A stretch of 47,927 bases of DNA from Phycisphaerae bacterium. Its GTDB lineage: Bacteria; Planctomycetota; Phycisphaerae; UBA1845. The notes below the pieces were generated by a model. That model saw only the letters and a program-made list of their open reading frames with translations, did not search any database and was not told the DNA's origin. Within the stretch, counting starts at the first letter, position 1, and every line of letters begins with the position of its first letter. The stretch spans positions 1-47,927 of the forward strand of contig JABWBH010000036.1 in assembly GCA_013360585.1 (NCBI GenBank), given 5' to 3'. Positions 8,596 through 22,803 of this stretch are shown in pieces. The position numbers and the translations under genes were made by a program.

Positions 8596-9615
8596 ATGCG
8601 TCATGACGATCGGTTGAGGATGATCCGGTCGAGGCGAACGCGCGGGGGGGCGCTGGCGGCGTACGTGGCGGCGTGCGTGACGGGGCTTGCCGGATGTCAG
8701 CCGTCCGGGTCGCGTGAGTTTACGCTCTGGAACCCCTTCGGGTTCCGCAACCCTTTTCAACCGGATCAGCCGCCGCTGCGGATCGGGATGGTCGCGGACA
8801 CGCAGGGGGTTTTCGACCCGCGGACGTGGGTGGAGACGTTCAAGACTCCGCCGTGGGAGGATTTGTCGAAGCACCTTTCCTCGGAGTTGAAGCGTCCGGT
8901 TCAGGTCGAACCGCTGACGGCGGACCAGATTGCGTTTCACCTTCAATCCGGGCGGATTCAGTTCGCGCTGGTGTCCGGCGCGGACGTCGAGCGGATCCGC
9001 GACAAGACTCAGGCGTTCCTCGAAATCGCGCGGGCGGAGGCGGCGACGCGCAAGGGTGTGATCGTCGCGGACGCGGATTCGGGGATCCGCTCGATATCCG
9101 AGTTGAAGGGCAAGCGCTTCGCGTTCGGTCCTTCGGGCGACCCGATCCTCGACACGGCGGCGAAAGAGGCGCTGCAGAAGTCGGGCGTGGCGATCGACGA
9201 CCTCAAGCGTGAGATTCTCCCGATCCCGGGCACGCTTCAATATCACCTCAGTTCGTTTGAGGTCGCCAAGGAGATTGTTTACGGGGGAACACCCGCGGGC
9301 GTGATGGACCACGACGAATTCGAGTCGCTTCCCGATCGCGGGGGAAAGTTCACCTGGAAGGGGTTTACGTTCAGCCGCGATCAGTTCACGGTGTTGGGAA
9401 CAACCGACGGGGTTCCGCTGGACACGATCGAGGACGCGCGGTTCCTCGCGTCGAAGACGGCGGATGCGGCGCTGGTCGAACGCTTGCGCCACGTGCTGCT
9501 GGAGATGGACCGGCAGCGGCGTGAGGCGTGCCTGTCGCTGGGGTTCCGGCGCTTTACGCCGCCGAGCGGGAGCGCGTCTCCGGGGTCGTCCGCGTCGTCT
9601 TCGGCTTCCGCCTGA
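8596..9615 (+). CDS. PhnD-like periplasmic substrate-binding lipoprotein
   Basis: The 339-residue product has a basic N-terminus, a hydrophobic segment and a lipobox ending at LAGC (cysteine at about residue 34), so it is a lipoprotein. The rest resembles the phosphate/phosphonate-type (PhnD/SsuA-like) binding-protein fold: LRIGMVADTQGVFDP, an N-terminal lobe with FKTPPWEDLSKHLSSEL, FALVSGADVERI, the hinge-region SISELKGKRFAFGPSGDPI and YGGTPAGVMDHDEF. An S/A-rich tail ends the protein. A GGGAGGGA site 6 bases upstream supports the start. No ABC permease or ATPase is adjacent, so it may serve as an orphan sensor or binding protein rather than a transporter part. It stands just before the polysaccharide block; a link to it is not shown. 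Confidence 0.75.
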   Translation: MRHDDRLRMIRSRRTRGGALAAYVAACVTGLAGCQPSGSREFTLWNPFGFRNPFQPDQPPLRIGMVADTQGVFDPRTWVETFKTPPWEDLSKHLSSELKRPVQVEPLTADQIAFHLQSGRIQFALVSGADVERIRDKTQAFLEIARAEAATRKGVIVADADSGIRSISELKGKRFAFGPSGDPILDTAAKEALQKSGVAIDDLKREILPIPGTLQYHLSSFEVAKEIVYGGTPAGVMDHDEFESLPDRGGKFTWKGFTFSRDQFTVLGTTDGVPLDTIEDARFLASKTADAALVERLRHVLLEMDRQRREACLSLGFRRFTPPSGSASPGSSASSSASA

Positions 9616-9679
9616 ATCCTGTGCCGCCGGCGCGATGTTGAACGCGGTCCGGTGCGACGATCCGCGCCGTTCCGTTTCG

Positions 9680-11707
9680 ATGCAAACACCTGCCTGGTAT
9701 TACCGACGACTACGCTCAATGTCGCCCGCGGAGATCGGCTGGCGCCTCCGGGCGCGCGTGCGAGACGCCGTGGATGCGCGGTGGTGGGCGCGGCGGGTGG
9801 AGGAAACGAAAGCGGACCGGGTGCTGCCCGCGGAACTTCCCCAGCCGATCGGGAACCCGGTCGTCCTGGGCGATGTGCTTCGCCTCACCCGTGAGTCGCT
9901 GGTTCCGGGGGAAGTGGAGGAGATTCTGCGCCGCGCGGACGCGGCGATGCGGCATCGGTTCACGTTCTTTGACCTCCAGGAGGTTCATCTCGGCGACATC
10001 ATCCGCTGGAATTATGAGCCTTCAGCGGGGCTCGAGACGCCGAGGTGCTTCTCCTCCCGAATTGATTACCGCGACACGCGCGTCACCGGCGACTGCAAGC
10101 TGGTCTGGGAACCGAACCGGCATCAACACCTGGTCGTGCTCGGACAGGCGTACCACCTGACGGGGGAGACGGCTTACGCGGCGGAGGTGATTGCCCAGTT
10201 GGAATCCTGGATCGCGCAGTGCCCCTTCGGGTTCGGGATGAACTGGCGCAGTCCGCTGGAGCTGGCGATCCGCCTGATCAACTGGGCGTGGACGCTGGGC
10301 TTGATCGCCCGCAGCGGGCTTCCGAGCGGAGCGGTGGCGCGGCGGATCGCGGAATGCGCCTACCGGCACCTCTGGGACATCCGGCGGAAATACTCGCGGT
10401 TCTCGTCGGCGAACAATCATCTGATCGGAGAAGCTGCGGGCGTGTTTGTGGGGACCTCTTATTTTAATTACCTGCCCGGGGCGTCGCAGGCCCGGCGGGA
10501 GGCACAGCGGATTCTGGTCGAGCAGATGCAGGCTCAGACGCACGCCGACGGCGGCAATCGGGAGCAGGCTTTCAGTTATCACCTTTTCGTGCTCGAGTTT
10601 TTTCTGATCTGTGAAGTGGTGGCGCGTCGGATCGGCGAGCCTTTCCCGGAGTCCTTCCGCGCCGATCTGCGCAAGATGAGCGAGTTCGCGGCCGCGTGGA
10701 TGGAGGCGGGGGATCCCCCGATGTACGGAGACGCCGACGACGGTCTGGTGCTTGGCGTCGGGACGGCGGGGCAGCTTGGAGCGTCGGTGCTGACCGGGGT
10801 TGAGGCGGCTAACGCCGGGTTTCGGTGGATCAATGCGCAAGATCGGCGCGGTGCGCACGCGACGTGGGTGTGCGGCGTTTCCGGGTTCGACTGGGCGGCG
10901 AGGGCGAACAATGTTGATGCCGTCGAGTCGTTGCGGTCCCGAGCGTTTCCCGAGACCGGATTGTTTCTCCTTCAGGGAAGGCTCCCCGGAGGCGAGGCGG
11001 TGAGCGCCGCGCTGGACGCGGGGCCTCTCGGATTCGGGAGCATTGCGGCCCACGGTCATGCGGATGCTCTGGCGATGACGCTGCGTGTTGGCGGATGCAC
11101 ATTCATTTGTGAATGTGGAACTTACGACTACTTCACGTGGCCCGAGGCAAGGGAATTTTTCCGGTCGACCGCCGCCCACAACACGGTGGAGATCGACGGG
11201 GGGAGTTCGTCAGAGCCTCTCGGACCGTTTTTGTGGGGCAGACGGGCGGAAACCCGCTGTCTGAAGTGGGAGCCGACCCCGGACGGAGGCGCCGTTTCGG
11301 CCGAGCATGACGGCTACCGAAACCTGAGAGACGGGGTGATCCACCGGAGGGAGATAGTCCTCTCGATAACAAGGCGTGAACTGCTTGTAAAAGATGAGGT
11401 TATGTGCAGTTTTGACCACGAGGTCCGGCAGTTCTGGCACATCGGGAGGGATTGTCAAATTCGCGCCGTCGGGGATAATACCTACCGACTTACGGGGAGA
11501 GGGAGGGTCATTCTGGTTCGTCTTGATCCCGGACTGGAAGTCAGCCTGCATCGCGGAAAAACCGATCCGATGATGGGGTGGTTCAGTGCGGGATATCATC
11601 AGCGCGAGCCGATCTCCAGTCTGGTCGGGACGGCGAGAGTTGCGGGTCCTGTCACGTTCATGACGCGGTTCGAGTTCTGCACGCCCGATGTGAATCCGGC
11701 GTGTTGA
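9680..11707 (+). CDS. Heparinase II/III-family polysaccharide lyase
   Basis: From ATG 9680 the product is 675 residues and begins WYYRRLRSMSPAEIGWRLR, the usual N-terminus of this family. An alpha/alpha-barrel domain follows (LGQAYHLTGETAYAAEV, MNWRSPLELAIRLINW, FSSANNHLIGEAAG, NREQAFSYHLFVLEFF), then the heparinase II/III beta-sandwich domain with FGSIAAHGHADALAMTL, CGTYDYF and STAAHNTVEIDG. Conserved Asn/His/Tyr positions (NNH, YH, HGHAD) fit a lyase acting on uronate-containing chains. No signal peptide is obvious. An upstream ATG at 9635 is possible. Such genes often sit in exopolysaccharide loci, where the enzyme trims or releases polymer; here it precedes the Wzz/Wza/Wzx/Wzy set. Substrate unknown. 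Confidence 0.88.
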   Translation: MQTPAWYYRRLRSMSPAEIGWRLRARVRDAVDARWWARRVEETKADRVLPAELPQPIGNPVVLGDVLRLTRESLVPGEVEEILRRADAAMRHRFTFFDLQEVHLGDIIRWNYEPSAGLETPRCFSSRIDYRDTRVTGDCKLVWEPNRHQHLVVLGQAYHLTGETAYAAEVIAQLESWIAQCPFGFGMNWRSPLELAIRLINWAWTLGLIARSGLPSGAVARRIAECAYRHLWDIRRKYSRFSSANNHLIGEAAGVFVGTSYFNYLPGASQARREAQRILVEQMQAQTHADGGNREQAFSYHLFVLEFFLICEVVARRIGEPFPESFRADLRKMSEFAAAWMEAGDPPMYGDADDGLVLGVGTAGQLGASVLTGVEAANAGFRWINAQDRRGAHATWVCGVSGFDWAARANNVDAVESLRSRAFPETGLFLLQGRLPGGEAVSAALDAGPLGFGSIAAHGHADALAMTLRVGGCTFICECGTYDYFTWPEAREFFRSTAAHNTVEIDGGSSSEPLGPFLWGRRAETRCLKWEPTPDGGAVSAEHDGYRNLRDGVIHRREIVLSITRRELLVKDEVMCSFDHEVRQFWHIGRDCQIRAVGDNTYRLTGRGRVILVRLDPGLEVSLHRGKTDPMMGWFSAGYHQREPISSLVGTARVAGPVTFMTRFEFCTPDVNPAC

Positions 11708-11829: not shown

Positions 11830-12927
11830 GTGCTTCAACGCAATCCTTATACGCCCGCGGTTTTACCTTCCGCGCCGAAGTCGCCCCGCCGCCTGGTGAA
11901 GGGGATCGTGCTGGCGGGGGTGCATGACTGGGGGGGGTGCGCGCTGGACGCGCTGCTTCCCCGTCCGCTCGCGCCGGTGGCGGGTCGTCCTTTGATCGGC
12001 TACGCCGTGGAGTGGTTGAGATCGGCGGGGGTTTCGGAACTGACGATCTGCTCAAACCTTTCCGCGCGTCGGCTGGTGGACGCGCTGGGGGAGGCGGCGG
12101 ACGGCGTCACGTTCCACCAGGATGTCATGCCGCGCGGACCTGCCGGCTGCCTGCTCGACGCGTGGTCGGGGAGCGAGGCGGAAGCCGGGGTTCTCGTGGA
12201 CGGAAGCACGATCCCGGAATGCGACCTTCCGGCGCTGCTGGGGGAACATGAGTCTGGCGGTGCGGCGCTGACGGTCGTGGTGCGCGAGGATTCCGGGCAT
12301 GTGCGGGCGACGGATTTTCAGCCGCCTGCGGGAATCTACGTTGCGTCGCCGTCGGTGCTGGAGCACGTTGCGGAATCCGGGTACGTGGACCTGAAGGAGG
12401 GTCTGATTCCGGCGCTTTATGACCGTGGATACCGGATGACGACTTACGGAACGGCGGGAACGTGTCCGCGGGTGACGGGGGTGGCGTCGTATCTAGCGGC
12501 CAACGACTGGGTGCTGGAGCGGAACTGGGTGCGTCCTGAGGAACTGGACGGGTTCGAGGTTGCGGCGGAGGGATCGCGGATTCATCCGACGGCGCAGGTG
12601 CATCGCGGCGCTCGGCTTGCGGGACCGGTTCAGGTGGGCGCCCGGAGCGAGATATCGGACGGGGTGACGCTGGTGGGTCCGGTTTGCATCGGAAGCGACG
12701 TGCGTATTCATGACGGGGCGGTGATCTGCCGTAGCGTTTTGTGGGATTCGTGCGAAGTGGGCGCTGAAGCGCATCTGGATCGATGTCTGGTGGCGCAGAG
12801 TGCGGTGATCCGTCGTGCGGTGCGAGCGGTCGGGGCGGTGTTGGCGCCGGGCTGCGCGGAAGTGGAGCGCCCCGGACGGCGCAAGACGGGAGCGCAGGCT
12901 GTGCCGCGGAGACGCATCGGGACGTGA
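11830..12927 (+). CDS. Nucleotidyltransferase-like protein with left-handed beta-helix domain
   Basis: The 365-residue product has an NDP-sugar pyrophosphorylase-like Rossmann part (about 22-210: VKGIVLAG, RPLAPVAGRPLIGYAVEWL, PRGPAGCLLDAW, VDGSTIPECDL) and a C-terminal left-handed beta-helix of hexapeptides (about 245-335: IHPTAQVHRGARLAGPVQVG and following). The canonical nucleotide loop GGxGTRL is replaced by AGVHDWGG, and the usual metal-binding GD after the central strand is not obvious, so catalysis is doubtful. The start is GTG 11830; a later GTG just before KGIVLAG is possible. The 122-base gap after the lyase contains no gene. It may be a regulatory or partly active relative of sugar-nucleotide synthases and resembles the N-terminal half of the fusion protein at 15471. 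Confidence 0.75.
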   Translation: MLQRNPYTPAVLPSAPKSPRRLVKGIVLAGVHDWGGCALDALLPRPLAPVAGRPLIGYAVEWLRSAGVSELTICSNLSARRLVDALGEAADGVTFHQDVMPRGPAGCLLDAWSGSEAEAGVLVDGSTIPECDLPALLGEHESGGAALTVVVREDSGHVRATDFQPPAGIYVASPSVLEHVAESGYVDLKEGLIPALYDRGYRMTTYGTAGTCPRVTGVASYLAANDWVLERNWVRPEELDGFEVAAEGSRIHPTAQVHRGARLAGPVQVGARSEISDGVTLVGPVCIGSDVRIHDGAVICRSVLWDSCEVGAEAHLDRCLVAQSAVIRRAVRAVGAVLAPGCAEVERPGRRKTGAQAVPRRRIGT

Positions 12928-13027
12928 AGCGGATGCTGAGAGCGGGATCGTGCGACGGAGGGGTCGCGGAAGTCAGGTTTTCAAGAAGGTCGGAGCGAGA
13001 AACGAGCCGACAGGTCAGGAAGTGAAC

Positions 13028-15403
13028 ATGTTCGAGATCAATGAAGACGCGCCGGAAGGCGGACAGGATCGGGGCAGCGCGCTGATCCCCGCGGGCGGCG
13101 GCGTCTCCACGCTGGCGCGGGGGGGGGAGAGCGGCGGGTACGGACTGGCGAGTTACGGTCCGGCGTCCGGTCCTGCGCCGCATCGCGGTTTTTCGCTGCG
13201 GTCGATGCTGCGCTACAAGTGGATGGTGCTGGGGATCACGCTGGCGGGGGCGGCGGTGTCGGTTCCGCCGGTGTGGATGCTGATCAAGCCGAAGTACTAC
13301 GCGAACACGCTGATCCAGCTCAAGCCGACGATGCAGCGGCAGATCTACAAGATCGAAGAGACGGGCGTCATGCCGCTGTATCAGCAGTTCGTGAACACGA
13401 ACGTGATGCTGATCCGCGGGGCGGGGGTGCTCAACCCGGTGCTCAATGATCCCGAGGTGCTCAAGACGTCGTGGTATCGGGATCCGCCGCAGAAGCTTCT
13501 GAGCAGCGCCGTCAAGCCGGCGTATGAGCGTCTGCTGGAAGACCTGAACGTGGTCAACGTGAAGGGTACGGAGCTGATCGAGATCGGATTCTACGCGACG
13601 GATCCGAAGGACGCCGAGCTGATCGTGAAGACGATTCAGCAGGTGTATCTGGATCAGACGAAGGGCACGGCGGACCAGCGGACGCGCGACCTCCAGCAGC
13701 GGCTTCAGGAGGAGGAGGGGCGTCTGAAGAACACCCTGACGTCGTTGATCTCGTCGCGCGGAACGTTCACGGGCAAGTTCGGGAGCGCGTCGCTGGAAGA
13801 TGTGCAAACGCTGCACAACTCGGAACGGCTGAAGCTTCAGGGGGAGCTGCGTTCGCTGGAAACGACGATCAAGATGTACGACTGGGAGCGGGATTACCTT
13901 CGCCAGATCGTCGAAGGCGCGACGCCGGAGGAGGCGGACGCGGCTGCGGACGGGACGTCGGCGTCGGCGTCGGCTTCGGTCGGCGTGGAGGAAGGCGGCG
14001 AGGCGGGCGTGCGAGGCGACGAGCGGCCTCGGCGTTTGTTCTGGTCGGACCGGGAGTGGAGCCGTCTTTATCAGGATCGGGAGTCGAAGCGTGCGGCGTT
14101 GGAGACGGCGCTCCAGTCCAACATGGGGGAGAATCATCCGCGGATGCGGGAGATGAAGGCGGCGCTGGAGCTGGCGGAAGGGTCGCTTCGGCAGCGCGAG
14201 GAGGCGTTGCTGGCGGGCGGGGAGCCGGCGGTAGCGGCGGGCGCGGTCAGCGACGGGAGCCTCGACCCGGCGATGCGGTTGAAGGAGCTGGACTACCTCG
14301 CGAAGCGCGGCGAGGAGCAGGCGAAGCTGCTGCGTGACATGATCACGACGCTGGAGAAGCAGATCACGGACATTGCGGGGGCGGCTTCCGAGCTGAAGAT
14401 GCAGGATCACGAGATCGAGCATATCACCTTGAAGTACGAGGCGGTGCAGAAGCGCGTTGAGGAGATTCAGTCGGAGCTGATCAGCGGACCGGCGAGAATC
14501 GAGCCGGCGGGACAGGTCAAGGTGTCATCGCGTCCGAAGAACGACCGTCGTCCGCTGTTTTCGGGTGTGCTGGTCTTCGGGTGGCTGGCGGCGGGCCTGG
14601 CGCTGGCGTACTTCCGGGCGGCGATGGATCCGTCGATGTCGGAAGTGAGCGACGTGACGAATACGGTTCAGGTTCCGTTTCTGGGACAGATGCCGCGTTT
14701 CGCGCCCGGGACGGACGCGCTGTCGGACACGAGTCCGATGCTTCAGGAGAGCATCCGCATGATCCGGACTGCGCTGCTGGAGCGGTGCAGCGTGCGTCAG
14801 GGGTACACGGTGCTGATCACGAGTCCGAACGTCGGGACGGGGAAAACGACGTTTGCGATGCTGCTGGCGCGCAGTCTGGCGCATGTGGGGAAGCGTGTGC
14901 TGCTGGTGGACACGGACATCCGACGATCGAGTCTGAGCCAGCGGGTGAACGCGGGACCGCGCAAGGGTCTGGTGGATTTTCTTCGCACGGGCAAGCTGAC
15001 GACGAAGGACGTCCTGTTTCATGCGGACGTTCTGGGCGTCGACGTGATACCCGCGGGGGACCGGGCGAGCGTGGACGACGCGGAAAGGATGGCGAACGGC
15101 CGGTTCGGGCAGGCGTTGAAGGAGTGGCGTGGTTCGTATGACTTCGTGATTCTGGACTCGGCGCCGGTGCTGCCGGTGGCGGACGCGCGGATCCTCGCGG
15201 GTCAGGCGGACGGGACCATCATGGCGGTGCGGGCGTCGCAGACGCGTCGGGCGGAGGCGATGGAGGCGCTGGCGGAGCTTTCGGCTGCGGGGGCGCGTCT
15301 TTTCGGGACGGTGCTGATCGGGACGGATCCGCGCGGCGGGTATTACCGGGGGTACGATTACGGAAGCCTGGCGCGGCGTCCGGTCGAGGTCAGCGGGGTC
15401 TAG
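13028..15403 (+). CDS. Wzz-type polysaccharide co-polymerase with BY-kinase domain
   Basis: The 791-residue protein joins a chain-length determinant and a bacterial tyrosine kinase. It has a cytoplasmic Gly-rich N-tail, a first membrane helix (about 65-85), a periplasmic Wzz domain with long coiled coils (for example DLQQRLQEEEGRLKNTL), and a second helix (about 511-530). The cytoplasmic kinase carries Walker A SPNVGTGKTTFAML (about 599-612), Walker A' VLLVDTDIRR, Walker B FVILDSAPV and a short tyrosine cluster at the C-terminus (GGYYRGYDYG). It controls chain length and activity of the Wzy pathway by reversible tyrosine phosphorylation. ATG 13028 follows AGGAAG; the frame is open further up to 12815 but that part overlaps the preceding gene. 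Confidence 0.93.
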   Translation: MFEINEDAPEGGQDRGSALIPAGGGVSTLARGGESGGYGLASYGPASGPAPHRGFSLRSMLRYKWMVLGITLAGAAVSVPPVWMLIKPKYYANTLIQLKPTMQRQIYKIEETGVMPLYQQFVNTNVMLIRGAGVLNPVLNDPEVLKTSWYRDPPQKLLSSAVKPAYERLLEDLNVVNVKGTELIEIGFYATDPKDAELIVKTIQQVYLDQTKGTADQRTRDLQQRLQEEEGRLKNTLTSLISSRGTFTGKFGSASLEDVQTLHNSERLKLQGELRSLETTIKMYDWERDYLRQIVEGATPEEADAAADGTSASASASVGVEEGGEAGVRGDERPRRLFWSDREWSRLYQDRESKRAALETALQSNMGENHPRMREMKAALELAEGSLRQREEALLAGGEPAVAAGAVSDGSLDPAMRLKELDYLAKRGEEQAKLLRDMITTLEKQITDIAGAASELKMQDHEIEHITLKYEAVQKRVEEIQSELISGPARIEPAGQVKVSSRPKNDRRPLFSGVLVFGWLAAGLALAYFRAAMDPSMSEVSDVTNTVQVPFLGQMPRFAPGTDALSDTSPMLQESIRMIRTALLERCSVRQGYTVLITSPNVGTGKTTFAMLLARSLAHVGKRVLLVDTDIRRSSLSQRVNAGPRKGLVDFLRTGKLTTKDVLFHADVLGVDVIPAGDRASVDDAERMANGRFGQALKEWRGSYDFVILDSAPVLPVADARILAGQADGTIMAVRASQTRRAEAMEALAELSAAGARLFGTVLIGTDPRGGYYRGYDYGSLARRPVEVSGV

Positions 15404-15470
15404 GCGCTTCGTTCATGACCTTCCGGCCGGGGCGCCGGCGGCGCGTTGCGCGCGGATCGGACAACGGGCG

Positions 15471-17246
15471 GTGCAGTTGATTGTCGTCATCCTGGATTCG
15501 CATCCGGCGTACCTCGAAGCCGGTGCGGACGGTCTGAGCCTGCTGTCGCTGCCGCTGGGGACGGGGACGGTTTACGATGTCCTTGCCGGGCAGATTCGCG
15601 AGGCCGGTGCGGCGTGCATTCACGTTCTCCCGGGGTTTTCGCCTGGGGCGGGCTACGCTCGGCGGTTCGTGGCGCGTGCGGAAGAAGCAGCGGGCGCCGC
15701 GGCGCTACCGGTCAATGTGCTGACCTCGTCCGGGCTTTCCGAACTGCTTCATTCCTGCGAACCTTCAGATGATCTGGTCATCATCGACCCTCGTTACTGG
15801 CCGGTGGGCGGCTTTGATCTTCTTGAATTGATTGAGCACCGTGACGACCGTCGGTGGACGGTGCATGCCGTGGCGGTGGCGTCGGACAGCGAGGAAGCCC
15901 AGGAATACGTCCGGTTGGATGCGGCGGGCCGGGTGCGGTGTATCCGCCGGTACTACGAGAGTGTGACGTGGCCGAAGACCGGTCCGGTGCTGGCGACGGT
16001 GATGCCCGCGTCGGCGGCGGAAGACGTGATGTTCAGCTCGCTGGGAGAGCTGCGGCACGTGTTGTCGCTGCGCGGGATGTTAAGCCGCGACCTGCACGCG
16101 GCGGAGGGGAGTCTCGACCTGATGCAGGAGGAGGCGTATCTGGCGCTTCAGGAGGAGCATGCGACGGCGCGATGCGCCGGGTCGCCGCCTCCGGGGTTCC
16201 GGTTCATTGAGACGGAAGTTCTGGCGTCTGAAAGCGCGCGGGTCCACCCCTCGAGCCGGATCCGCGGACCGGTGGTGCTTCAGGCCGGGACGCAGGTGGA
16301 CGAGGGGGCGACGTTGATCGGTCCGTCGGTCGTGGGTCGTGGGGCTCGCCTCCGTCGGGATGCCTTCGTCGCGCAGAGCGCGATTGCGGAGCGTGTGACG
16401 GTGGGCGCGGGGCAGGCGGTTCGGCATCAGGTTCTGGCGCGAACTGACGGGTCGGGGTCGGCGCCGAGCAACGGGCGGATACGGACGGGAGACGGATCCT
16501 CGCGCGGCGCGAGGGGTGTGGCGTTCACCCGTCCGAGGGTGGAGTTCAACGGGTCTGCGCGGACGGTGCGGCGGCGGGTGTATCCGGCGGTGAAGCTGAC
16601 GGTGGAGGCGGCGCTGGCGTGGACGGCGTTGATCGCTCTGCTCCCGCTTTTCCTGGTGATCGCCTTGCTGATCCGGCTGGACTCGGCGGGGCCGATTTTT
16701 TTCCGTGACCGGCGCGAGGGCAAGGGCGGCCGGATGTTCGACTGCCTGAAGTTCCGGACGATGCGGCCCGACGCGCATCTGATGCAGCGAGGGCTTTATG
16801 ACGACAACGCGGTGGACGGACCGCAGTTCAAGATGGCGAACGACCCGCGAGTGACCCGGGTGGGGCGTTGGTTAAGGCAGGCGAACCTGGATGAGCTTCC
16901 GCAATTGATCAACGTGGCGCTGGGGCAGATGAGCCTGGTGGGGCCTCGACCGTCGCCGTTCCGGGAGAATCAGATCTGCGTGCCGTGGCGTCGGGCGCGG
17001 TTGTCGGTACGTCCGGGGATCACGGGGTTGTGGCAGGTGTGCCGACATGATCGGGACGAGGGGGACTTCCACCAGTGGATCGCGTACGACATTGCGTACG
17101 TTCGTCATCAGTCGTTCCTTCTTGACCTGCGCATCCTCTTTGCGACGATCCTGACGCTCGGGGGGAAGTGGCACGTGTCAGAGGGGTGGATCCTCGGGAC
17201 GGATTCGCGGCGGGAGCGATTATCGGTCGAGCGCGGCGCCGCATGA
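15471..17246 (+). CDS. Fusion: nucleotidyltransferase-like + left-handed helix + phosphoglycosyl transferase
   Basis: This is a 591-residue three-part protein. Residues 1-210 resemble a nucleotidyltransferase Rossmann fold without its signature loop ([36 protein letters not shown]). Residues about 245-325 form hexapeptide turns ([19 protein letters not shown]). Residues about 365-575 are a bacterial sugar transferase (WcaJ/EpsL class): a membrane hairpin at about 381-402 ([20 protein letters not shown]), [20 protein letters not shown], the catalytic Asp474-Glu475 in [17 protein letters not shown] and [10 protein letters not shown]. The transferase part moves a sugar-1-phosphate onto undecaprenyl phosphate, starting repeat-unit synthesis. 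The N-terminal module resembles the free-standing protein at 11830. Start GTG 15471 (TTG 15477 also possible). The transferase assignment is firm, the role of the N-terminus unknown. Confidence 0.9.
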
Positions 17247-17363
17247 CCGGTGAGCGACGGTCGCCCGCCGATAGAGAAGAAGGTTTCGGCGCGCGGCAGG
17301 CCGGGTTCGGCGCGGAATCCGCCGGATCGCCGCGATCGCAGCGCTTTGGCAAGGAATACTGTC

Positions 17364-18530
17364 ATGTCAATGCGACGCAGGGGACAAGGGTGTCGTTGGT
17401 TGGCGTCGACGTTGTCGTCGTCGGCGGTTTTGATCGGAATGACCGGTTGCGGACCGGACCCGCGGATGAGCGTCGAGCAGTTCATCGAGCTGCAGCGGCG
17501 TTTTGAGGATAAGGCGCCGGAACCCGAGACGGCGCCGCCGGATTATTCGGCGATCGACCGTCTTCTTGGACCTTACCGGGTTGGTCCGGGGGACACGATG
17601 ACGGTGACGTTCTCCGGGACGGACCTTCCTTTTGCGCCGACGGTGACGGCGCGCATCGACCGGGAAGGGAATCTGAGCCTGCCGCTGGTCGCGCCGATCA
17701 AGGTTGCGGAGCTGGAGCTGGAAGACGTGGATGCGGTGATCAAGGCCGCTTATGTGCCGGGGATCGTGAAGGATCTGTCGGTGCATACGGAGGTCGCCAC
17801 GCCGGAGACGACGCGGGTGCTGGTGGTGGGCGCGGTGCAACTGCCGGGATACACGCGGTTGCGTCGGACGGAGCGGAACCTGGTGCTGAGCGTGGTGCTG
17901 GCTGGCGGGGTGACGTCGGATGCGACAGGTCGGACGACGCTGCGGCGTCTTCGGCGTCCGGGAGAGGAGTGGCGTTTTGACCTGACGGATCCTGAGCAGG
18001 TGCGCGCGGCGATGAACCTCGAACCGCTGGAGAACGGCGACATGATTGAAGTGGAGGCTTCGCCGCGGGCGGTGTTCATCGGGGGTCTGGTGAACGCGCC
18101 GGGACCGCTGCTGCTGGATCCGGGGGTGGAGGTGAACCTGCTTCAGGCGATCGCGGCGGCGGGGGGGCTGCGGACGGACATCACGCCGCGCGAGGGGACG
18201 CTGATCCGCCGGATGCCGGACGGAAGCGACGCGATGGTGAAGATCAACCTGGACAAGCTGGCGGCGATGCAGTCTGCGAATCTGAAGCTTGCGGCGGGGG
18301 ACGTGCTCTGGGTTCCGCACACGGTGGAGACGCGGATTCAGGACTGGATCAACCGGAACATCTTCCTGAGAGCGGGCGCGACGGTGAACTACAACGTGTC
18401 GGGGATCGAGTTCATGAACCGGCATGAGCTTCAGGGGGGTCGCGCCGGGGGCGGGTCGCTGGAGGATTCGTTCGATCCCTTCGGGTTCCTGCTGAGGAAT
18501 CAGGCGCTTCAGGGGCTGAGCAACCCGTGA
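17364..18530 (+). CDS. Wza-like polysaccharide export lipoprotein (SLBB domains)
   Basis: From ATG 17364 (AAGGAA about 8 bases upstream) the 388-residue product starts MSMRRRGQGCRW, then a hydrophobic signal and a lipobox ending LIGMTGC. The mature protein has the polysaccharide export (Poly_export) domain, YRVGPGDTMTVTFSGTD and RIDREGNLSLPLVAPIKVAEL, followed by two SLBB-like repeats (VLVVGAVQLPGYTRL and VFIGGLVNAPGPLLL with LLQAIAAAGGL). It forms the outer-membrane export channel of a Wzx/Wzy system and works with the Wzz/BY-kinase at 13028. A GTG at 17250 would add 38 arginine-rich residues before the signal and is unlikely. The next gene overlaps its stop by 4 bases. Confidence 0.92.
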   Translation: MSMRRRGQGCRWLASTLSSSAVLIGMTGCGPDPRMSVEQFIELQRRFEDKAPEPETAPPDYSAIDRLLGPYRVGPGDTMTVTFSGTDLPFAPTVTARIDREGNLSLPLVAPIKVAELELEDVDAVIKAAYVPGIVKDLSVHTEVATPETTRVLVVGAVQLPGYTRLRRTERNLVLSVVLAGGVTSDATGRTTLRRLRRPGEEWRFDLTDPEQVRAAMNLEPLENGDMIEVEASPRAVFIGGLVNAPGPLLLDPGVEVNLLQAIAAAGGLRTDITPREGTLIRRMPDGSDAMVKINLDKLAAMQSANLKLAAGDVLWVPHTVETRIQDWINRNIFLRAGATVNYNVSGIEFMNRHELQGGRAGGGSLEDSFDPFGFLLRNQALQGLSNP

Positions 18531-19681
18531 GCATCGCGGTGATGACGCCAGAGCCTGTCGCGGGCGCGCCGTCGCTTAAGCGCGTGGAGCATCTGCGAGG
18601 TCTTGCGCTGCGCGCCCTTCCGAGGATGGTGACGCGGAGCGGTTTTTTCGGTTGGTGCATTCGCCGAGGCCGGTCGGGCGACCGTCTTGAGGGGGAGTCG
18701 TTGCGTTACACGGCGATCGTGCTGATCGGGCTTTCCGCGCAGAAGCAGGATGTTTCGGGGCGGATTCTCGGGGCGGGCGGGTCGGACGCCTGCTGCGACC
18801 GGTTGATCGATCGTCTGCCGCGGATGAACAACATCGGCGACGTGGCGCTGACGTTGTGGGCGGCGGTGTCCTTGCGGCGGCGCAATGCGGCGGCGGCGCT
18901 GGAGCGTTTGAAGGCATTGTCGCCGGTGGAGCGGCCGTGCCCGACGGTGGAGCTGTCGTGGGTGGTTTCCGCGCTGTCGTTTCATCCGGAGTTTCTGACG
19001 GATGAGAAACTGGCGCGGGCGGCGGCGAAGCGTCTGAAAGGGGCGTTTCACCCGGATTCCGCGTTGTTCTCGCATCATGCGCCCGGGACGCGGGCGGGTT
19101 TTTTCCGTGAACATGTCTCGTGCTTTGCGGACTGGGTGTACCCGGTGCAGGCGCTGTCGCTGTATCACGAGATGACGCGGGACGCGGAGGCGGCGCAGTC
19201 GGCGCGGGCGTCGGCGGCGAAGATGGTCTCGCTTCAGGGTCCGGCGGGGCAGTGGTGGTGGCATTACGACGTGCGGACCGGCCGGGTCGTCGAGCCGTAT
19301 CCGGTGTACGCGGTGCATCAGGACGGGATGGCGCCGATGGCGCTGCTGGATCTGAAGGATCGCTGCGGGGCGGATCACACTGTCGCGATGATGAAGGGCG
19401 TGGACTGGTTGTACGAGGCGCCGGAGTGCGGGTCGCGGTTGGTGGATGACGAGGCGGGGCTGATCTGGCGGAAGGTGGCGCGTTACGAGCCGAACAAGTG
19501 GGTGCGCGGGATGCAGGCGGCGGCGAGCCGGATGCACCCGGCGCTGCGTGTGCCGGGGACGGGGGTGCTCTTTCCGGCGCGGCGGATTGACTGGGAGTGC
19601 CGTCCGTATCACCTCGGCTGGTTGTTGTACGCGTTCTCGGATCGGCGCGTGGAGGCGTGGGGGCTGGGGAAGGCGGAATGA
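18527..19681 (+). CDS. Unrecognised alpha/alpha-barrel-like protein coupled to Wza
   Basis: This is a 384-residue soluble protein without signal or membrane segments. It begins at GTG 18527 inside the stop of the Wza gene (GTGA overlap), so the two are co-translated. The chain is helical, with repeated helix pairs and Trp/His-rich turns (GQWWWHYDVRTG, HQDGMAPMALLDL, WECRPYHLGWLL), which suggests an alpha/alpha-toroid (six-hairpin or prenyltransferase-like) fold as in many sugar-acting enzymes. Conserved-looking acidic and aromatic residues line these turns. I cannot assign an activity. Its position between export and glycosyl transfer genes suggests a task in polymer processing or modification. 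Confidence 0.7.
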   Translation: MSIAVMTPEPVAGAPSLKRVEHLRGLALRALPRMVTRSGFFGWCIRRGRSGDRLEGESLRYTAIVLIGLSAQKQDVSGRILGAGGSDACCDRLIDRLPRMNNIGDVALTLWAAVSLRRRNAAAALERLKALSPVERPCPTVELSWVVSALSFHPEFLTDEKLARAAAKRLKGAFHPDSALFSHHAPGTRAGFFREHVSCFADWVYPVQALSLYHEMTRDAEAAQSARASAAKMVSLQGPAGQWWWHYDVRTGRVVEPYPVYAVHQDGMAPMALLDLKDRCGADHTVAMMKGVDWLYEAPECGSRLVDDEAGLIWRKVARYEPNKWVRGMQAAASRMHPALRVPGTGVLFPARRIDWECRPYHLGWLLYAFSDRRVEAWGLGKAE

Positions 19682-21894: not shown

Positions 21895-22803
21895 ATGATC
21901 GACTTCACGTACATTCTGGCCGCTTCGCACTCCGGTTCGACGCTGCTGACGATGGTTCTGGCGTCGCATCCACGCATTGCGTCGGTGGGGGAGACGTCGG
22001 CGGTGTTGTGGCGGGGCAAGAGCGACAGCGCGACGTGCAGTTGCGGAACCGCTCTGTCGGCGTGCGCGTTCTGGGCGAAGGTGCGAGAGGGGATGGCGCG
22101 GCGCGGCGCGGACTGGGAGTCGCCGACGTTTCAGACGGATTTCCGGCTTCGCGGGCGGCGGTGGACGGACCGGGTGCTGCGTGCGGAGCATCAGGGGCGT
22201 TTGCTGGAGGCGGTGCGCGACGCGGCGCTGGCGGCGAGCCCGGCGTGGCGGCGCGAGTCGCCGGCGATTTTCGGTGCGAACCGGGCGCTGATCGAGACGG
22301 TGTGCGGGCTGAAGGGCACGACGGTTTTTCTGGACTCGTCGAAAGAGCCTCACCGGTTGAAGTTTCTGATGCGGATTCCCGGGTTGCGGGTGCGCGTCAT
22401 TCAGCTTGTGCGCGACGGGCGGGGGGTGGCGGCGAGCTACCTGCGGCGCAACGAGTTTCCGATCGAGCGGGCGTGCGACGAGTGGCGGCGGAGCCTGGTG
22501 TCGGAGGAGCACCTGCTGCGGCGTCTGCCGCCGGAACGGGCGTTGCGGGTCCGGTATGAGGATTTCTGCCGAGATGCGGCGGGGTGGTCGAGGCGCATCT
22601 TTGAGTTCATGAACGTGGATGCGGGACACGACGTGTCGCGGTTTCACCTGGCGGAGCATCACATTCTGGGGAACCGGATGCGTCTGAGCGCGACGGGAGA
22701 TATCCGGCTGGATGAGAAGTGGCGACGAGAGATGACGCCGGCGATGCTGGAGGTGTTCGAGCGGACGTGCGGGGGGATCAATCGGCGTTACGGGTATGCG
22801 TGA
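21895..22803 (+). CDS. PAPS-dependent sulfotransferase
   Basis: This is a 302-residue enzyme of the sulfotransferase family. The 5'-phosphosulfate loop SHSGSTLLTMVL lies at about residues 11-22 right at the N-terminus, the first strand TYILAAS precedes it, and the 3'-phosphate-binding motif LVRDGRGVAASYLRR lies at about 171-185 with the usual arginine and serine. A CSCG motif with a further Cys (CSCGTALSACAFW, 48-60) is typical of the bacterial subgroup in polysaccharide loci. It would transfer sulfate from PAPS to hydroxyls of the repeat unit. The downstream flippase starts inside its 3' end (8-base overlap). Acceptor sugar unknown. Confidence 0.88.
   Translation: MIDFTYILAASHSGSTLLTMVLASHPRIASVGETSAVLWRGKSDSATCSCGTALSACAFWAKVREGMARRGADWESPTFQTDFRLRGRRWTDRVLRAEHQGRLLEAVRDAALAASPAWRRESPAIFGANRALIETVCGLKGTTVFLDSSKEPHRLKFLMRIPGLRVRVIQLVRDGRGVAASYLRRNEFPIERACDEWRRSLVSEEHLLRRLPPERALRVRYEDFCRDAAGWSRRIFEFMNVDAGHDVSRFHLAEHHILGNRMRLSATGDIRLDEKWRREMTPAMLEVFERTCGGINRRYGYA

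Follow-up and report, generated by a model that had tools for sequence, protein, structure and literature searches.

The monotopic phosphoglycosyl transferases (PGTs) include bifunctional or fused members (Bi-PGTs), which are part of the monoPGT classification and carry a second functional domain on the catalytic core (PMC10942596). In large monotopic PGTs such as WbaP and EpsZ, a cytoplasmic module precedes the PGT core on its N-terminal side, and a regulatory or dimerising role has been proposed for this module (PMC10942596, PMC12802240). The pair EpsW-EpsZ demonstrates that a protein bound to a PGT can control its activity (PMC12802240). Proteins with an inactive nucleotidyltransferase (NTT) domain also serve as controls; in human GDP-mannose pyrophosphorylase the alpha subunits are inactive and have an allosteric role (PMC9424295). 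In the EPS loci linked to the exosortase XrtA/EpsH, a chain-length determinant, a PF02397 PGT and the exosortase are clustered (PMC1569441).

In this work, a polysaccharide locus from a Planctomycetota MAG was analysed in which a priming PGT carries an NTT-derived head and is encoded close to a second protein of the same type. The MAG has a near relative in BroJett003 (97%), and other relatives are labelled Phycisphaerae. The window, that is the whole stretch of DNA analysed, is 47,927 nucleotides long. The two proteins are referred to as A and B, and both are genuine open reading frames at the positions given by a preliminary description of the window (Table 1). The start of A is GTG as listed and its conserved part begins near residue 22; the start of the Wzz-type kinase is probably the ATG at 13028, which gives a protein of 791 aa. 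Downstream of the genes in Table 1 are a WecG-type glycosyltransferase, a Wzx-type flippase, glycosyltransferases and a Wzy-type ligase/polymerase, and the locus holding A, the kinase and B is of the Wzx/Wzy type. A sulfatase (PF00884, 24489-25913) lies within the polysaccharide cluster, and an ORF that looks like a candidate sulfotransferase is found in the same stretch (21895-22803). On the other side, the heparinase-like ORF at 9464-11707 is open upstream of its conserved start; relatives align from residue 73, which places its true start probably close to 9680.

Table 1. Features of the A-kinase-B region, with positions in the window.
Feature	Position	Strand	Remarks
Protein A: free-standing pseudo-nucleotidyltransferase with left-handed beta-helix (LbH) tail	11830..12927	+	365 aa
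A residues 28-36, LAGVHDWGG	11911..11937	+	sits where the lost GGxGTRL signature loop would be
A residues 98-106, D..PRGPAG	12121..12147	+	nucleobase-loop position
A residues 187-190, D-[IL]-K-E	12388..12399	+	D, K and E in 65/65
A LbH	12571..12840	+	
Wzz-type chain-length determinant/tyrosine autokinase	13028..15403	+	between A and B here
Protein B: NTT-like head, LbH and monotopic PGT	15471..17246	+	591 aa
B residues 1-238, remote pseudo-NTT head	15471..16184	+	near-invariant D9, P28, E145, R160, D207
B LbH, about 4 coils	16212..16445	+	residues about 252-324
B linker, poorly conserved	16446..16580	+	dN/dS 0.4-1.5
B PGT catalytic domain	16581..17180	+	Asp-Glu pair at residues 474-475 invariant
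Wza-type polysaccharide export protein	17250..18530	+	gene after B; conserved neighbour

Protein A clearly has the fold and the homology of PF00483-type sugar nucleotidyltransferases. Pfam gave weak NTP_transf_3 and LbH matches only. The AF2 model of the protein (pLDDT 69) matched GlmU, GMPPA/GMPPB, RmlA and MurU in the PDB at VIA Z 20.7-22.5, a profile of A matched canonical NTTs of related genomes with an hhalign probability of 99.4% (E 3.7e-21 for this single pair), and the same profile found GMPP, eIF2B and UGPase among PDB chains. An LbH acyltransferase, which would have an acyl-CoA site in a long LbH, was considered as a conceivable other identity. The helix here is short and of the eIF2B/GMPPB type; the Pfam matches, which span about 75-90 residues, are to LbH_EIF2B, GMPPB_C and hexapep.

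The catalytic signature of this family is missing from A. The GGxG[TS]RL or GTR signature loop, which the preliminary description had reported as missing, is kept in 0/65 A sequences, the metal Asp of Gly-Asp is likewise found in 0/65, V, I or L stands in place of the second metal Asp (W.D.G) in 63/65, and the EKP hairpin has been lost by deletion. These losses bear on the suggestion, made in that description, of a channelled donor supply. In this reading A (or A together with the head of B) would make a nucleotide sugar by unusual chemistry and pass it to the PGT. A fold shared with sugar nucleotidyltransferases and the physical link to the very PGT that would consume the product speak for such a supply, but A has neither the Arg/Thr of the signature nor either of the two metal Asp positions, its EKP hairpin is gone, B is without the nucleobase loop, and intact RmlA-like and GMP-type enzymes are encoded on other contigs of the genome. 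We consider channelled supply very unlikely.

Other parts of the A pocket have been kept. D..PRGPAG is invariant in 64-65 of 65 A sequences, with the second P in 58, and D98 and G103 within it are presumably equivalent to Gln82 and Gly87 of RmlA, the roles of the residues being taken from RmlA structures and the pocket assignments from alignment. The D-[IL]-K-E motif of A is invariant as well. Since the nucleobase loop of A is kept and the triphosphate and metal machinery is lost, A could be capable of binding a nucleotide, or a nucleotide sugar, and leaving it unconverted.

The PGT domain of B, as judged from sequence, is intact; PF02397 (Bac_transf) matches residues 377-562 with an E-value of 5e-59, and the D474-E475 pair of monotopic PGTs is invariant. 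A PF13727 match before the PGT core, which would be expected in a large, WbaP-like PGT, was not found with Pfam. The nature of the head was more difficult to establish. Family searches returned no family match for residues 1-240, Pfam applied to 32 B heads gave NTP_transf_3 in 3 members with an E-value of 0.048 or worse, too weak to be of use, and a PDB sequence search with the B-head profile alone gave chance-level matches only. A profile comparison that included the LbH gave 99.7%, but most of this score comes from the LbH that both sides have in common, and the comparison was repeated without it. A profile of 69 orthologous heads, with the LbH excluded, was compared with NTT profiles by hhalign, and the E-values obtained, each for a single pair, were 2.6e-8 against canonical and PGT-fused NTT heads together (95%, 195 collinear columns), 2.3e-6 against A (89%) and 3.7e-5 against canonical NTTs alone (71%), with column-shuffled controls at 0.076 or worse. 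Residues 1-238 are thus a remote but significant NTT homologue, and the possibility that residues 1-240 are not of this kind, which the preliminary description had itself named as one that would speak against it, is not borne out by profile comparison. The full-length AF2 model of B is poor (pLDDT 56, from a shallow alignment of 7 sequences) and lends weak support to the head fold; each of the eight PDB entries that match it best is an NTT+LbH enzyme of two domains, aligned from residues 1-3 to 325-365. The description of B as a PGT with a catalytically degenerate NTT and LbH head is consequently upheld. In alignments, the B head has neither a signature loop nor a nucleobase loop, and a hairpin with invariant E145 and R160 is retained. 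The losses in the two proteins are therefore complementary: A keeps the nucleobase loop and has lost the EKP hairpin, and B has lost the loop and keeps the hairpin.

B was found at 68 loci in 56 of the 114 genomes of the order, with an open frame at a median of 608 codons, so the frame is not broken in relatives. A is present in 56/56 of the genomes having B, and it is directly upstream on the same strand at 60/68 loci, with a gap between the matches of 83-3027 bases. This agrees with the earlier proposal that the free-standing protein at 11830 is a module of the same type and belongs with B. Seven of the eight loci that are without an upstream A lie at contig ends, and the eighth (G482:C171, L208) is a true exception in which B has no adjacent A. 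That A and B flank the Wzz kinase is correct for this locus but is not general, as 14 of the 60 pairs leave no room for a kinase; the kinase was for this reason rejected as part of the core. Most of the genomes compared are MAGs. The pair is also found in a MAG labelled Gemmatimonadaceae (L034), and its spread beyond Planctomycetota is known from this one MAG. Eight genomes (G006, G017, G025, G028, G455, G481, G483 and G484) have two or three separate A-B loci each, as if each polysaccharide locus had its own pair.

Both A and the B head are under purifying selection. The dN/dS is 0.09-0.24 in the Rossmann part of A and 0.11-0.38 in the B head, against 0.4-1.5 in the linker. It is conceivable that the heads are relicts, the decaying remains of an old enzyme-PGT fusion with no present function, and the loss of catalytic residues and the truncation of heads in some lineages would fit. 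We regard this as highly improbable given dN/dS values well below 1 in A and the B head, invariant residues across 65-69 sequences and the presence of A in every genome with B. The divergence of A is correlated with that of the B head beyond what the PGT domain accounts for (partial r 0.59, permutation p 0.0005). This correlation is common to the kinase too, and part of it may come from saturation in the slow PGT domain.

Several relatives carry the modules in other fusions. Single proteins with the three-domain architecture NTT-LbH-PGT are found at L066, L072 and L108 (PF00483, LbH, PF02397), with PF00483 and PF02397 each above the Pfam cut-off, and L116 and L140 resemble them; an intact GGxGTRL is absent from the heads of these fusion proteins too. 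In L035, L067, L112 and L119, the C-terminus of A continues into an exosortase of the transmembrane type (E 1e-46 to 1e-60 for PF09721), and by similarity the same fusion is present in L068-L070, L113, L114, L118 and L120. The longer of these loci keep the order A, kinase, PGT. Together, the NTT-LbH-PGT and A-exosortase fusions tie the module to membrane machinery. Loci of the G012 type retain the order A-exosortase, kinase, PGT but have a shrunken PGT head, and in L067-L071, L121 and L127 the PGT heads are much shortened and further degraded, with the LbH lost or partial. The shrunken heads of some lineages (L067-L071, L121) mean that the head is not universally needed. A further fusion concerns the gene at 18527-19681, whose product has no Pfam match. 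A homologue (E 1.7e-106 and 7e-115) forms a C-terminal fusion to two B proteins of G028 (L051:7382-10369, 995 aa, and L059:3155-6172, 1005 aa), which links the 18527-19681 protein to the priming complex.

A pure scaffold would explain many of these arrangements. The NTT and LbH parts of A and B would then do nothing but build a PGT complex with the kinase, the exosortase or the export machinery, and no small molecule would be bound. The lost catalytic residues, the well-conserved LbH of both proteins, the fusion of A to the exosortase and of B to the PGT, and the shrinking of heads in some lineages are all in keeping with this. D..PRG.AG and D-[IL]-K-E at the pocket positions of A are, however, invariant across 27-43% identity, which is more than a bare scaffold would need. 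We see a scaffold without ligand as a possible but somewhat doubtful explanation.

The explanation that we put forward, and hold to have about an even chance of being correct, is that A and B form a non-catalytic pair, linked to the priming PGT, whose role is to regulate initiation or to organise it, A being the likely ligand-binding half. The two would make up an obligate pair within a polysaccharide locus of the Wzx/Wzy type, in which B is the priming PGT and its cytoplasmic head, a pseudo-NTT with a short beta-helix, would take the place of the 4-helix bundle and DUF of the large PGTs. A is a second pseudo-nucleotidyltransferase of common ancestry with the B head. Assembly through LbH and NTT faces is common among NTT-LbH proteins, and the modules of A and B most likely assemble together in this way. 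The assembly would control or organise the priming step, usually with a Wzz kinase encoded between the two genes. A is the likelier half to bind a ligand. For the B head, a part in docking or transduction is more likely than sensing on its own, because the loss of its nucleobase loop makes canonical sensing of nucleotides unlikely. Missing signature in A together with conserved pocket residues and conserved pairing makes a regulatory or assembly role likelier than donor synthesis. Counting against control by the pair are the shrunken heads, the exception at G482:C171, a partner that is itself a pseudo-NTT and a correlation that extends to the kinase. The nucleotide-sugar sensor of the preliminary description is plausible for A, with its invariant nucleobase loop and D-[IL]-K-E, and unlikely for the B head, where the loop is gone. 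In its full form, A and B would make an allosteric sensor of a nucleotide sugar (or nucleotide) in the priming PGT, with occupancy of a composite pocket gating the transfer to the lipid carrier, and we think it unlikely that the mechanism is as specific as this.

It is an open question how cells share out undecaprenyl phosphate and nucleotide sugars among the pathways that compete for them, and to our knowledge few direct controls of the priming PGT have been described. A pair of pseudo-enzymes linked to the PGT and conserved across a bacterial order would offer a testable control based on metabolites or on assembly. In many Planctomycetota, a signature-less, NTT-derived head is present on the priming PGT, and this PGT is nearly always encoded beside a second such protein; the pairing therefore suggests an uncharacterised control or assembly of the first polysaccharide step.

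The comparison with known systems places the locus between several of them. Like the XrtA/EpsH loci it has exosortase connections, as relatives fuse A to an exosortase, whereas the exosortases found in the source genome, of which there are two, sit on other contigs (C42:31964-32734 and C67:11670-12455). WbaP and EpsZ resemble B in having a cytoplasmic N-terminal module ahead of the PGT core, but B has no PF13727 DUF match and its head consists of NTT and LbH. The Bi-PGTs are similar in that an extra N-terminal domain is joined to the monoPGT catalytic core (PMC10942596), and in B the head is fused to the core, is under selection and may be functional; in contrast, the fused domain of B is an NTT without the catalytic signature, and B has an obligate free-standing partner in A. 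In the literature searched, with the PNAS 2021 PGT survey outside its scope, neither a PGT-nucleotidyltransferase fusion nor a pseudo-NTT head with a partner was found. Fused PGTs are thus already known (PMC10942596), and a pseudo-NTT head with an obligate free-standing partner is, within that literature, apparently new. GMPPA/GMPPB and eIF2B epsilon/gamma, the top matches of A, have the same NTT+LbH fold, and their inactive NTT homologues are regulatory or structural subunits. Those subunits pair with an active NTT or with an exchange factor, whereas here the partner module is degenerate as well and forms part of a PGT protein, so that A does not pair with an active NTT in its adjacent homologue. 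A and B would in this way add bacterial examples to the regulators derived from inactive NTTs, which are best known from eukaryotic GMPPA and eIF2B.
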